From contig OX578146.1 of assembly GCA_951213105.1 (NCBI GenBank), forward strand, positions 55,037,569 through 55,101,568: DNA of 64,000 nucleotides, in the 5' to 3' direction. The first letter of the stretch is position 1. The number at the start of each line of letters is the position of its first letter. Below the pieces are notes generated by a model. The model ran no database searches. It saw only the letters and a list, made by a program, of their open reading frames with translations, and was not told the origin of the DNA. This document shows positions 8,984-60,970 of the stretch, one piece after another. Source of the stretch: Amaurobius ferox (lineage: Eukaryota; Arthropoda; Arachnida; Araneae; Amaurobiidae). The translations under genes and the position numbers were made by a program.

Positions 8984-9943
8984 AAAAAATATGATGTGGG
9001 CAACACATGACTTTCCTTATATAATGTGATGTATTTACTACTTTTACAGTAAAAAAAAAAGGTTTTTCTTATAGTAGATACTAATATTTTTTCCAAGATA
9101 TTGAATTTTCGACAATTAGTCGTCATTTTCATTGATTTAGCGTCATTTTTATCCATTTGGCGGGATTTTCGTTAATTTGGCAGCAATTAAAAATGTCGCC
9201 AAATTGGCGATATTCCGCTAAATTTGTCGCCAAAATCTCGCCAAGCGTTATGGGCGGCGGAGAAATAAGTTATTCCTACACCAGATAAATGACTATTGGC
9301 GTTCAAATACAAAAGTATTACCCAAAGTATCTTTTTCATGAATGGAACGAGCTAGATCCACGAGAATGATGTCACCCAATTTATCGCATGGTATTACATA
9401 TGAAAATTGAATACGTTTCTCAATAGGAAATATTTTTTTCATTTTATATGACTTTTTGATAATTTTTTTGAAAAATGCTCAATATCTCGAGAACGGTTCA
9501 TGTTAGCGTTCTAAAATTTATGTCAATTGTTTTCTAATGAAAAATTACATAAGAAATGTCTATTTGCGTAACTTTATTGGTGGTTTTGATTTTTTGACAA
9601 TTTTTTCAAAATTTCATTCGAAAATGTGGGGGGTTCTAAACATTCGATTGCGTAAAAAAACAATAGGCTTCCAGTGTTTATGGATTGTGATTTTTGTACC
9701 AAATTTGGCTTGAATCGGGCCATTCGTTCGTTAGTTGTCGTCTCCACAGTCTCACTGACACACACACACACACACACTCACACACACACATACTTTCACA
9801 CATACACACACACAGACATCACTTCAAAAATGTTTGATTCGTGATCAGGGATGCATGAAACGAGCTCTCCCACCGAAAACTCGAATTCGAATTTTCGAGC
9901 CCGTCACAATACTTTCCTTATACATTATGTATATAGGGAAAGT
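8984..9943 (-). mobile_element. Family A element, full length
   Basis: Minus-strand copy. The left end is the reversed 3' hairpin (ATGTGGGCAACACAT) plus ACTTTCCTTATATAATG; the right end is the reversed 5' hairpin (ACTTTCCTTATACATTATG, then GGGAAAGT). The CA tract at about 9758-9814 is the family GT microsatellite on the other strand. The GCCAAATTGG-type short repeats lie at about 9110-9245. No protein is encoded. Confidence 0.85.
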
Positions 9944-18838: not shown

Positions 18839-19575
18839 CACACTTTACAACATAGTTGAAAAGTGTTTATGACTTTGTTCGTTCTGTCTGTCTGTATGTC
18901 TCTCTGTCTGTCCTCTGTCTGTTAGCACGATAACTGCGGTAAAAATGACTTTATCAAAATGAAATTTGAGAATGTTGTTTAGACGGTCTGTAATATAAAC
19001 TAATAATATCATCCAATTTGTTTTGGATTGAACTCGGGTTGAAAAAATGAAATACATTGAACCCTATGGGATCTAATTTTTCAAACATTTTTTAAGTGAA
19101 TTTCAAATTCACAAATTGCTTCGAAAGCTTTAGGAAATATTTAGATTATGACGTAAGATATATAAAAAAAATTTTAGAAAAATATATTCAGTAGCTTTTT
19201 AAATAAAAATTAAAATAATAATTACACCCTTTATATGAAGAGATCACGTGGCCACTATATGAAGAGATCACATGACCCATTTCAAAATAATATAAGGCTT
19301 CCATTTTGCGTCAAAATCGTGATATTTAAAGTTCATTTTAATTCATATTTAGTGTTGTATCCGTCCTAAAACCGCTTTATGTTTGCTTAATTTCTGTTCA
19401 TCAATGTTCTGAAACAACGCAATTACAATATATTTGAATTTAAATGATCATCAATTATAATTATTTCTACAACGAAGACTAATTTTCACTTATGGAGATT
19501 GTAAACACATCAAGATGTAAGATGATTTGTATAAGAATTCCTGCATTTCCTTAACGCAAAATTATATAGCGCTGC

Positions 19576-19961
19576 GGTGTGCTGCTGAGACCCAGACCGT
19601 CCGACCTACCAGAAAGGTGTAAGGTAACTGTTTGGACTGCCGGGAAGTGCCACCCAATTTTGACCGGAACCCAGTGGGGGAGGCATCCACGAGGACCGTA
19701 CTCTCCTTCCCCTACCACCAACCTCTCGGAAGGACTTACGGACCCACATGTTTAACGTGATCGTACTCCGCATGAACACGGCGGCAGTTGTGGCAGCGTG
19801 CAAATCCAGCGCGCAAACCACCGGGCTACCGCGTCCGAAATGTGCCAACAGTACGCGGTGTTCCCAGGTGATCACCTACCCAAGTACTAACCGCGCCCGA
19901 TGCTGCATGACTTCGGTGATCTAACGAGAACCGGTGTTTTCAGTACGGTACGGCTGTTGGC
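19576..19961 (-). mobile_element. Composite SINE with 5S rRNA head
   Basis: A 386-bp GC-rich insertion in family C, read on the minus strand, flanked by a 6-bp duplication CGCTGC (19570-19575 and 19962-19967). Its first ~118 nt are a near-complete 5S rRNA. A remnant of a tRNA-type A box follows (GGTAGCCCGGTGGTTTGCG, about 19823-19841), then a body (GAGAGGTTGGTGG, GTCCAAACAGTTACCTTAC). The body is shared with the tRNA-headed SINE at 30.2 kb. 5S-derived SINEs (SINE3) and 5S/tRNA chimeras (AmnSINE1) are known in vertebrates; the resemblance here is in architecture. Confidence 0.85.
19844..19961 (-). rRNA. 5S rRNA-derived sequence (SINE head)
   Basis: About 118 nt matching animal 5S rRNA from end to end on the minus strand. 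Landmarks are the complementary termini (GGCCAACAGCC at the 5' end and CTGTTGGC at the 3' end), ACCGGTTCTCGTTAGATCACC, GAAGTCATGCAGCATCGGG and the internal control region GGTAGGTGATCACCTGGGAA. It is continuous with SINE sequence and lies inside a target-site duplication, so it is most likely a retroposed pol III promoter, not a functional 5S gene. Confidence 0.85.
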
Positions 19962-20298
19962 CGCTGCAGAGTGCAATATAGTTAATCTGAATGAAACAGT
20001 CATTGATTTTACATAGAGAACAGACGATTTTATAGCTGACTTTTTGGTTGAAGCTTTAAGCTTAGAGTTAAATTACTTGTATCTCCATGGTTTTAAGTTT
20101 TTAAATAAAATAATTGATTGTAGTATTGTGACGAATGAAAGGAATAGTATAAATGTTTATGAATGAAACTTTTACTGCTTTTCATAGAGAGCCGAACAAT
20201 TTATATTTCAGTGACGTTATTTGAATAAAGTTCATTTGTTTAGAAAGTTTTAAAATACAGAAACGTATTGTAGTAATGTGATAATCTTAAAAATATTA

Positions 20299-30165: not shown

Positions 30166-30405
30166 ATGGATCGGCGCGAGAGGGACCAGTGGTTAAGGTT
30201 CAGGGATCTCACTCGGATGACCCGGGTTTGATTCTAGGATATGCTCAAATTGTCCCCATGTTCACGCAGAACACGAGTACGTTAAATTCGCAGGTTTGAA
30301 ATTCCTTCCACGAGGTTGGTGGCAGAGGAAGGAGGGTATGGTCTCTGTGGTTGCATTCTCGCTGTGTTTCGGTCTAAATTGATGTCTATACCAGCCATCC
30401 AAACA
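30166..30405 (+). mobile_element. tRNA-derived SINE sharing the 5S-SINE body
   Basis: Head with A-box-like GACCAGTGGTTAAGG (about 30183) and B-box-like GGGTTTGATTC (about 30223). The body then follows (ATGTTCACGCAGAACACGAG, CACGAGGTTGGTGGCAG, GGAAGGAGGG, ATCCAAACAGTCATCTTAC). These blocks occur in the same order in the 5S-headed SINE at 19.6 kb. The 3' end passes into an 18-bp repeat. Confidence 0.75.
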
Positions 30406-30815
30406 GTCATCTTACATTTATTACCCATCTTACATTTATTAGCCATCTTATAGTTATCAGTCATGTTACACTTATCAGGCCGCCCAGGCGATGAAGTGGA
30501 TAGCGTCTTCGGCTGCTGCCTGGTGGGCTCGGATTCGAATCCTGAGTAAGGCATGGATGTTTATCGAGGATAAAGTCAGTCTTCCGCCTTCTGGGTCCTT
30601 GGCTAAATGTGAAGCTGCATCCTTTCCGAACTTCGTCAGTGATGCTTGGCTGTAAATAAACTTTGTTCTCTTGTCTTGTGTCTTTCTTCGTTCTGTCCTG
30701 CTTCCTGGGTCACTGGTCCTGTATCGACTCCGTCGCAAACAGGAGGTCATAAGAAACAACAACACACTTATCAGCCATCTTACACTTATTAACCATCTTA
30801 CTTGATCTATCAGTA
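30406..30815. repeat. 18-bp minisatellite (SINE tail) split by a SINE
   Basis: About six units of ATCTTACATTTATTAGCC type, 18 bp apart. Four lie before position 30478 and about two after 30764. It looks like the 3' tail of the preceding SINE. A second SINE inserted inside it and duplicated ACACTTATCAG. Confidence 0.85.
30479..30763 (+). mobile_element. tRNA-derived SINE with 11-bp target duplication
   Basis: 285-bp insertion flanked by perfect ACACTTATCAG (30468-30478 and 30764-30774). The pol III head has GATAGCGTCTTCGG and B box GGATTCGAATCC (about 30530). The body (CATGGATG, ATAAAGTCAGTCTTCCG, GTGAAGCTGC) matches the SINE at 56.1 kb. The 3' end is A/C-rich: ATAAGAAACAACAAC. Sequence 30816-31275 after it holds nothing recognised. 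Confidence 0.9.
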
Positions 30816-31284
30816 ATGGATGTAAACTGTTAGGTTCTGGTGGCACGTCCAAACAGATACCTTACACATTAGTAGGTTGGACGACCTGGATCGAGAAAAA
30901 CAACACATGGACAGTTTACTCGCTTGTAATGCACTCGTGAGCATAATATAATTATGGAATAAGATTATGAACATGGCCATTAGAGCCTCGTTTTCCCCTG
31001 AGTTCAGTATTTGAAAAATTTGAAGCCATCCGCATGGTAGGATTGAATTTATCGATTTTCATGAAGGTTCGTAAAATTGTAGAATATAGTAAGTTATCTT
31101 GTAACCATTGCAGATTCGGAAAAATAGGTTATTTAATAAATCGCCCTGTGAAAATTGGAAGATTTTGGATCGGGCGGCTAATTTGTTCAGTTGTTCTGCA
31201 AAGGATAACTTCTAACCTGTTGCAGAATGAACATGTTCCTTCAATATAGAAACCTTTATCTCATCTTAATTATTTATTCTCATA

Positions 31285-59712: not shown

Positions 59713-59822
59713 CTCAGTAGAATGATAAGAAAATGCATGAAAATGATAATTTAAATATGTATTATATGATTGTATATATATGTATGTATTAGCATAAATA
59801 TTTAATATAGAGTCAGAATTGT

Positions 59823-60497
59823 ATGACAGTGTATCAAATCATGGCGCCGAATAAAACTAGGCAATTAAGTAAAAGATCGAGGCAAGATGCTCCAATTATC
59901 GATAATATACAGCAGGAGGTACATATAAATAACAGAGTAACAGATAGTTCGGCAAATAACGCGATCCAGATACAGATGCCCGCAAATCAAGCGCAGCAAA
60001 ATACATCGTTGCCAATTATGCAGATGTTGCCATCATTTGATGGACAAAAGGAAAATAATGTCAATTTTTTTATTATACAATTTAAGGAAATAGCGGATTT
60101 AACATCATGGTCCGAACAAGAGAAAATTATAATTGTCAAATCAAGATTAAAGGGAAAGGCTCAACAATTTCTAGCAGAAAATATTGCTCTGCAAAAGGAA
60201 AAATCATATGAAAAATTCATGGAGTTATTAAAAAACAAATTTGAAAGGAAACAAACATTAGTGCAAAAACACAACAATTTTAACAATCTGAAACATTTAC
60301 CAAATATGACAATTAAGGAGCTTGCACAAGAAATCGAAAACCAATCGATAATTTTTCTAGAAGTAGATGAAACAATGGACGCAAATGTAAAAAAAATTAC
60401 AGAGAAAATTAAACTTACTAAATTTTTGCAAATAGTTCGAGAGGATTTAAGAACAGAAATAAAAAAAATGACCCGAAAACCTTTGACGAAGCAGTGA
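59823..60497 (+). CDS. gag: Gag, capsid region (first reading frame)
   Basis: 224 codons giving the capsid part of a Ty3/gypsy Gag, the structural protein of the intracellular particle. Visible family features are LPSFDGQKENNVNFFIIQF, then WSEQEKIIIVKSRLKGKAQQ and LKNKFERKQTLVQKHNNF. The N-terminal ~65 residues are polar and Gln/Asn-rich. An in-frame ATG at 59841 (MAPNKTRQ) is an equally plausible start. The frame ends at 60497, before the nucleocapsid. The normal continuation lies in the -1 frame, which overlaps from 60422. The probable switch point is a run of eight A (60461-60468). Confidence 0.85.
   Translation: MTVYQIMAPNKTRQLSKRSRQDAPIIDNIQQEVHINNRVTDSSANNAIQIQMPANQAQQNTSLPIMQMLPSFDGQKENNVNFFIIQFKEIADLTSWSEQEKIIIVKSRLKGKAQQFLAENIALQKEKSYEKFMELLKNKFERKQTLVQKHNNFNNLKHLPNMTIKELAQEIENQSIIFLEVDETMDANVKKITEKIKLTKFLQIVREDLRTEIKKMTRKPLTKQ
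60461..60468 (+). other. Capsid/nucleocapsid frame break at A8
   Basis: Eight A directly after GAACAGAAAT. The capsid frame reads them as A AAA AAA A, which is formally a slippery heptamer. No stable stem starts 5-9 nt downstream, and the frames overlap broadly (60422-60497). A one-base loss in a homopolymer, in this copy or in the assembly, is the simpler explanation. Confidence 0.7.
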
Positions 60498-60970
60498 AAA
60501 TAGCGGAGGTAATAGAATCCGCATTGGAGGAACAAAATGATTGTGTAAATAGTATTGATGTAGAAAATAAAATAAGTGAGAATCTGGAAATAAATCATGT
60601 AAAAACGGAAAATACTGCAGAAAACCCGCCACAGAAATTCTGTATAGCGTGTGGTCGTAACAATCACTGGATGTCCGAATGCTATATGCTTCATAATGTA
60701 CAAGACAATTTAAAAAAGGCGATGACAAATGGAAATAACATTCAGGAAACTACCAATTTTCAACAAAGACCCACTATTCAAAATAATTATGCACACTATA
60801 GTAGGGCGAATTTCAGAAGAGGTAATTTCATAAATAACCGGGGAATACGACGGCGTGCAGGAAATAACAACAGACAATTTCAAAGTAATAACAGAAGATC
60901 ATATCAGAATAATGGACCACATTATGAAAGCAATCATAGGCAATATCAGAATAATGAATATTTAAACTAA
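60468..60970 (+). CDS. gag: Gag, nucleocapsid region (-1 frame)
   Basis: C-terminal part of Gag in the -1 frame relative to the capsid. It carries one zinc knuckle C-X2-C-X4-H-X4-C (codons at 60641, 60650, 60665, 60680) and then a basic Asn/Arg/Gln-rich tail with RGNFINNRG and RRAGNNNR, expected to bind the genomic RNA. The first codon often suggested, 60494, is GTG, and there is no early ATG, so the segment is probably made only as an extension of the capsid frame. It ends TTA AAC TAA at 60962-60970, inside the frameshift signal for pol. Confidence 0.85.

Follow-up and report, generated by a model that had tools for sequence, protein, structure and literature searches.

The 5S-like sequence at this locus raises two questions: does it represent a chance retroposed copy or a member of a dispersed family, and how could a complete 5S rRNA have come to stand at the head of a tRNA-like SINE? 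We addressed both in the genome of the spider Amaurobius ferox, starting from a 64 kb window (the whole stretch of DNA that was analysed) and extending the comparison to the entire assembly.

A 5S-headed SINE inserted into an older repeat

An earlier note on this DNA had read the locus as an arthropod SINE in which a 5S head is fused to a tRNA-like remnant, and this reading is borne out, with the correction that the element lies on the minus strand and runs from 19961 to 19582. Rfam 5S_rRNA (RF00001) matched at 19961-19843 on the minus strand over model positions 1-120 of 120 (89 bits, E 9.6e-18), and this is the sole Rfam RNA at gathering scores in the 64 kb window, in which ARAGORN found no tRNA genes. 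The element, which we assign to a family called here family A, is 380 bp long (19582-19961, minus strand); it has many full-length relatives, and its ends are fixed by the target duplication and by empty sites. Its layout, from 5' to 3' on the minus strand, starts with a complete 5S rRNA head of 118 nt that begins at 5S nucleotide 1 (19844-19961), followed by the linker ACATTT (19838-19843), which resembles the start of the 3' flank of the host 5S genes, ACATTATTTTT (array genes L067-L069, L074 and L077). A tRNA-derived remnant with an A box and without the B-box segment comes next (19798-19836), then the SINE body (19645-19797), and finally a LINE-like 3' tail with a covarying hairpin (19582-19644), the arms of which are GGCCGTCC and GGACGGTC in the family. 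The remnant was delimited by blastn against an intact tRNA-headed sibling SINE (L005:2991-3276), and the partial tRNA A-box region noticed earlier corresponds to 39 nt at 87% identity to the head of that sibling. The body is also found in the sibling, with 93% identity over 219 nt of body and tail. The element is a short, dispersed, non-coding repeat with target-site duplications, and its head comes from a pol III gene with an internal promoter (a full 5S by Rfam, the promoter being predicted from the sequence), as in other SINEs; the 5S rRNA-derived head places it in the SINE3 class.

Flank comparison revealed a 12-bp target-site duplication, given here on the plus strand, with one copy at 19570-19581 (CGCTGCGGTGTG) and the other at 19962-19973 (CGCTGCAGAGTG), identical at 10 of 12 positions. 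The CGCTGC duplication described previously is real, but it is merely the identical half of this longer one. When the two flanks are joined with a single duplication copy, the resulting sequence can be aligned, junction included, with further copies of the repeat that encloses the element, that is, with paralogous empty sites, both elsewhere in the window (for example over 361 bp at 82% identity and over 359 bp at 79%) and outside it (L045, L046, L036, L031 and L033). These alignments confirm that the element sits within the repeat that had been called family C. Given the 12-bp duplication and the empty-site alignments across the junction, this is an ordinary 380-bp insertion into an older repeat.

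Copy number and age of family A

A single occurrence of the junction between the 5S part and the body had been named in advance as the sign of a chance retroposition. We counted 11,939 junctions of family A (5,918 + 6,021) in 3.56 Gb, using a 30-mer pattern with at most one mismatch over the 3,564,777,782 bases and 276 contigs of the assembly, and none with the reversed control pattern, so a single chance event does not account for the element. A DNA search with the window element, in which the best 40 of 6450 candidates were scored, listed 43 matches, 40 of them nearly full length at 95-100% identity and three short. Target duplications were recognised at a score of at least 9 in 26 of the 28 family A copies read, the window copy (7) and L027 (3) falling below that score. 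Two of the 26 lie in CA repeats (L006 and L025), and two pairs share flanks as duplicated loci (L003/L008 and L019/L020); after their removal, 22 distinct informative sites remain, which answers the call for copies with differing target duplications. The window element belongs to an amplified SINE family of Amaurobius ferox.

The median distance of the 28 copies to their consensus is 1.8%, and that of the window copy is 3.7%. Because the copies examined were the best matches, family A is older than this median implies. A sample of 18 ten-kilobase stretches at set positions yielded one complete and one interrupted 5S-headed copy. Exact body patterns had 0 matches in viral and bacterial/archaeal collections, as expected for a host SINE. 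At L038, an LTR retrotransposon some 7 kb long separates the two parts of a 5S-headed copy (2465-2510 and 9577-9614).

A tRNA-headed sibling and a second 5S-headed family

The sibling SINE at L005 adjoins a family A copy. Its body and tail are of the same type, but its tRNA-like head is intact, both the A and the B box being present, and by eye it is bounded by a target duplication of its own. Searching the genome with it (best 40 of 3994 candidates scored) gave 41 full-length matches among the 43 listed. In blastn, family A aligns to sibling positions 1-39 and then to 66-284; the 26-27 nt B-box segment of the sibling is missing from family A, and the tRNA B box was probably lost from the amplified family.

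The window also holds an old relative of the sibling SINE at 30210-30892 on the plus strand. It has diverged (72%), is aligned by blastn at 30210-30416 and 30842-30892, and is broken by an insert. Nested in this relative, at about 30485-30757, is a different tRNA-like SINE with a AACAACAACA tail, flanked by CACTTATCAG on both ends; both the SINE and its flanks were recognised by eye. Elsewhere, L044 (C9:120000001-120010000) consists of tandem units of about 230 bp made of the head and body of a tRNA SINE, mostly without the tail, which recur in a larger period of 5,086 bp. This array looks like a SINE-derived satellite.

A second 5S-headed family, family B, is distinguished by the linker TCATTTCAG and by a tRNA-like part of another kind, in which both boxes are present. 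It came to light in the loci of a genome-wide Rfam 5S search in which 47 of 104,121 candidates were scored: of the 47 loci listed, 20 were fetched, and by eye 15 belong to family A, 5 to family B and none to a 5S gene.

5S genes of the host

Since all 20 fetched Rfam loci were SINE heads, a gene-specific 5S core was used to locate the genes. The SINE heads carry CGTTAGATC at a site where 5S genes are expected to read CGTCCGATC, which we take to be the gene sequence at that position. The gene-type core has 94 exact matches in the genome; all 26 bases of the core had to match exactly, so that closeness of the matches to the gene is partly due to selection and young copies are favoured. By position, 31 of the 94 lie in tandem arrays (10 on C24, 10 on C181, 5 on C145, and 2 each on C16, C22 and C135). 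Eight of these array matches were fetched; in the five with full coverage, all 118 nt agree and ACATTATTTTT follows; the 3' flank of the array genes reads ACATTATTTTTATTTTATATTTCGG or a longer T-run. On C16, C22 and C24, all three of them chromosome-scale contigs, the array copies stand right at the beginning, within the first 5-120 kb.

Another 12 of the 94 matches were taken as copies of one 5S pseudogene within a larger repeat on C1 and C3, four of the 12 having been read (L071, L072, L078 and L079). In these four and in L089, the first 18 or so bases of the 5S are missing and the pseudogene is carried by the larger repeat; these repeat-borne copies, L089 included, were kept out of the count of chimeras given below. 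The other 51 matches are dispersed, and 48 of them were read.

The comparison of the SINE head with the host 5S genes, which had been suggested as a check, shows that, relative to the gene, the family A consensus is changed at 7 of 118 positions and family B at 10 of 118. The head of the window copy has 13 differences in 118, seven of which are common to the family consensus.

Gene-type 5S joined to SINEs at dispersed loci

In 32 of the 48 dispersed loci that were read, an automatic test found the gene-type 5S followed downstream by SINE or LINE-like sequence. One of these, L118, was removed, a copy of the target duplication being placed at its junction, which leaves 31 chimeras. L093 and L094 are kept among them; their automatic partner is a neighbouring SINE, and by eye the joined piece is a tail fragment. 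Three of the 16 loci that had no automatic partner (L097, L104 and L106) look by eye like tail chimeras and were left uncounted.

The 5S part begins at nucleotide 1-3 in 29 of the 32 loci with an automatic partner. It ends at nucleotide 126-132, in or one base beyond the terminator T-run, in 25 of 31, and at 119-123 in another five, while in L120 the 5S contains an insertion and its end, judged by eye, lies in the T-run. The T-run is the pol III stop, and positions 119-121 are near the end of the mature 5S. Partners are joined in sense orientation in all 31 chimeras, and a second run on both strands (the first test considered the sense strand only) detected no antisense partner near the junction in the 48 loci. 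The points at which the partners start are many: the start of a tRNA SINE, the start of a complete 5S-SINE, the body, or the tail. For instance, the 5S is joined to the start of the tRNA sibling with its B box in L085, L114 and L116 (97%), to the start of a diverged relative of the sibling, also with its B box, in L102 (81%), to the start of a complete 5S-SINE in L082, L083 and L117, and to the SINE body in L080, L084 and L091. Among the near-complete 5S parts, 19 of 27 match the gene with no more than one difference, which suggests that the chimeras are recent events, with the reservation that the exact search core favours young copies.

A single duplication surrounds the whole chimeric unit in 26 of 31 cases (score of at least 9), and the same 26 exceed their own controls when the upstream sequence is shuffled. 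Five chimeras (L073, L110, L111, L116 and L123) are without a convincing outer duplication. In L121 some 90 nt separate the tail from the matching stretch downstream, in L093 and L096 the score belongs to a more distant copy than the one adjoining the tail (nearer copies were seen by eye), and in L093, L096, L113, L114 and L115 the score is inflated by a CAAC-type repeat in the matched stretch. These figures bear directly on the possibility that each unit was built in two steps, a 5S pseudogene being inserted first and a SINE landing beside it later. L118, with its duplication copy at the junction, does resemble such a serial insertion, and at several loci inspection by eye showed stacked insertions with a common target. 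However, a duplication around the SINE part alone, as two insertions would leave, was found in just 1 of the 31, a poly-T run in L088, as against the outer duplication in 26. Overall we regard a two-step history as most improbable, though it may apply to the five units that have no clear outer duplication. A duplication of 5S genes at the DNA level was also considered; it fits L099 and L124, which have clear gene spacer, and not the 31 chimeras. Taken together, the duplications, the orientation of the partners and the position of the junctions at RNA ends indicate that each of the 26 loci was produced in one RNA-mediated step.

Origin of the 5S head

The anatomy and copy number of family A, its tRNA-headed sibling, the target duplications, and gene-type 5S chimeras of the same layout call for a common explanation. 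In our opinion, it is very probable that this is an amplified SINE family whose 5S head was gained when a LINE reverse transcriptase jumped from a SINE RNA to a 5S-bearing RNA, some of the products of such jumps being subsequently amplified. Target-primed reverse transcription at a nicked target would begin at the SINE tail and run along the RNA of a tRNA-headed SINE. The LINE enzyme would leave this RNA at its 5' end or earlier, resume at the 3' end of a 5S RNA, and stop at 5S nucleotide 1. The product would keep a pol III promoter inside the unit, namely the 5S internal control region, and could therefore be transcribed and recopied; we infer that the 5S promoter may well be the one used for SINE transcription. 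L085, L102 and L114, which combine a B box with an outer duplication, would be the intermediates expected along this path.

The same sense orientation, layout and junctions would also be obtained if the 3' ends of 5S rRNAs were ligated to fragments of SINE or LINE RNA and the joined RNA were then reverse-transcribed, and the available text of PMC13174262 names ligation as an alternative for U6/LINE-1 chimeras. Yet the 31 junctions are spread over many points between the very first base of the partner and the neighbourhood of its tail, and many different RNA fragments would be needed to supply them; moreover, a few junctions seem, by eye, to carry extra bases. PMC6740152 states that template jumping has been reported as a source of SINEs and that bases without a template may be added in the process, with reference to studies of the R2 enzyme. 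We consider ligation unlikely, and infer that jumping is what makes the joins.

Family A itself presumably arose by such a jump. Against this stand its head, which is 7 bases off today's gene, and its linker ACATTT, which is not an exact match to the flank ACATTATTTTT; in view of these seven differences and the inexact linker, the founding junction is old and blurred. The acceptor that provided the head could have been a true 5S rRNA or an older SINE RNA that already carried a 5S part. The latter case, an exchange of heads in which family A took its 5S from another 5S SINE through a jump between SINE RNAs, and only that earlier SINE had taken it from 5S rRNA, is compatible with the jump that we favour. 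It would explain why families A and B have in common six head changes that are absent from the gene (positions 16, 26, 39, 40, 84 and 112) together with a CATTTC linker. On the other hand, an older variant of the 5S gene could explain these common changes, and direct joins of gene-type 5S to SINEs are observed. We regard an exchange of heads as a possibility to be taken seriously, if somewhat less likely than not.

If LINE enzymes habitually jump onto the free 3' end of 5S RNA, the birth of SINEs in this genome may be recurrent and perhaps ongoing, having drawn on SINE or LINE-like tails of at least three kinds and given rise to at least one, and probably two, dispersed families; we lean towards this view with some caution. 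Were it true, the source gene, the parent SINE, one-off intermediates that retain the B box and a family that lacks it would coexist, and one could measure how often a newborn SINE succeeds.

Comparison with known systems

As far as we can judge, the acquisition of heads by SINEs has mostly been argued from finished families. In Amaurobius ferox, the proposed step of head gain is visible at many loci, beside the source 5S genes and the tRNA SINE that donated the body, which makes the template-jumping model testable: junction positions would tell which RNA ends were used, target duplications would mark single events, and the ratio of one-off fusions to amplified families would give the success rate. 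Among vertebrates, AmnSINE1 has a chimeric 5S-tRNA head, and the body and the LINE partner of AmnSINE1/SINE3 differ from those of the spider family. Szafranski, in 2004, reportedly described a Dictyostelium 5S retropseudogene formed by LINE template jumping. Judging from the title of that work, the proposed step is the same, a jump of a LINE reverse transcriptase onto 5S rRNA, but it concerns one retropseudogene, as opposed to 31 chimeras and amplified families in the spider.

The idea that an arthropod 5S SINE would be new in kind did not survive comparison with the literature. HaSE3 of Helicoverpa armigera (PMC3272025) is a 5S-headed insect SINE and a 5S/tRNA-SINE chimera, with 16 H. armigera copies named; the accessible part of the same paper also cites SINE3-1_TC as an insect 5S SINE, and its authors propose template switching for HaSE3. 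As in family A, the 5S head precedes a body and tail that a tRNA-headed sibling (HaSE1) also has, and the host is an arthropod. HaSE3 differs in belonging to an insect and in that the accessible text describes no one-off fusions with the source gene, the two being compared here by description. PxSE4 and PxSE5 of Plutella and their lepidopteran relatives (PMC8010984) are 5S-headed SINEs as well, PxSE4 and PxSE5 having 4415 and 1952 copies in Plutella; by description, and as far as the excerpt of that paper goes, they differ from family A in having no tRNA remnant mentioned and in their tails, (TGA)n and (ATGT)n instead of (AAC)n-like. Mammalian 5S/LINE-1 and U6/LINE-1 chimeras likewise begin with a small RNA and are bounded by target duplications (PMC13174262). 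The same paper describes the 5S/LINE-1 chimeras as typically antisense and truncated, whereas the 31 spider chimeras are sense and nearly always start from 5S nucleotide 1-3. The introduction of PMC10886601 has SINE3 born several times.

No report of a spider 5S SINE was found in the mainly open-access literature, nor, among the best-ranked papers, one of a series of 5S-SINE birth intermediates in one genome. Insect 5S SINEs and template jumping are already known, and what appears to be new, as judged by the searchable literature, is a 5S SINE in an arachnid and a birth series within one genome. Our data extend 5S-headed SINEs to arachnids.

The tail hairpin and a putative partner LINE

In twelve tails picked for diversity, the tail hairpin pairs in 87.5% of 144 cells, and sliding the partners along the arms lowers this figure to 44% or less. 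Cells with a double change number 17, compared with a shuffled mean of 6.4, and the covariation score is 0.415 against 0.254 in the shuffled tails, with 0 of 500 shuffles as high for either measure; both values are to be read knowing that the structure was drawn from the same sequences that were used to test it. Two further measures are not above the shuffles, namely the number of pairs in which a double change occurs (5, a value reached in 101 of 500 shuffles) and the number of further pair types (14, reached in 323 of 500). The hairpin is also present in other tail-only insertions. Such a structure fits a LINE recognition hairpin, and a putative partner LINE may recognise it in the tails of family A. 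That partner would contain an ORF and have, at its end, the covarying hairpin together with CTTCAACA or CAACAAC. A LINE carrying the tail hairpin was not found, no reverse transcriptase being recognised by eye upstream of eight tail-like matches among ORFs of at least 70 aa. The LINE at L039 was considered as a partner and set aside; its 3' end is (CATTT)n, a different tail. The window also contains retrotransposon gag fragments at 59811-60970 on the plus strand, where DUF1759 scores above its cut-off, and Retrotrans_gag and a zinc knuckle score below theirs.

At L010, L007, L028, L047, L048 and L118, fragments of about 60 nt that carry the hairpin tail adjoin SINEs and, by eye, are bounded with them by copies of one target duplication, as if the duplicated target had been reused in stacked insertions.
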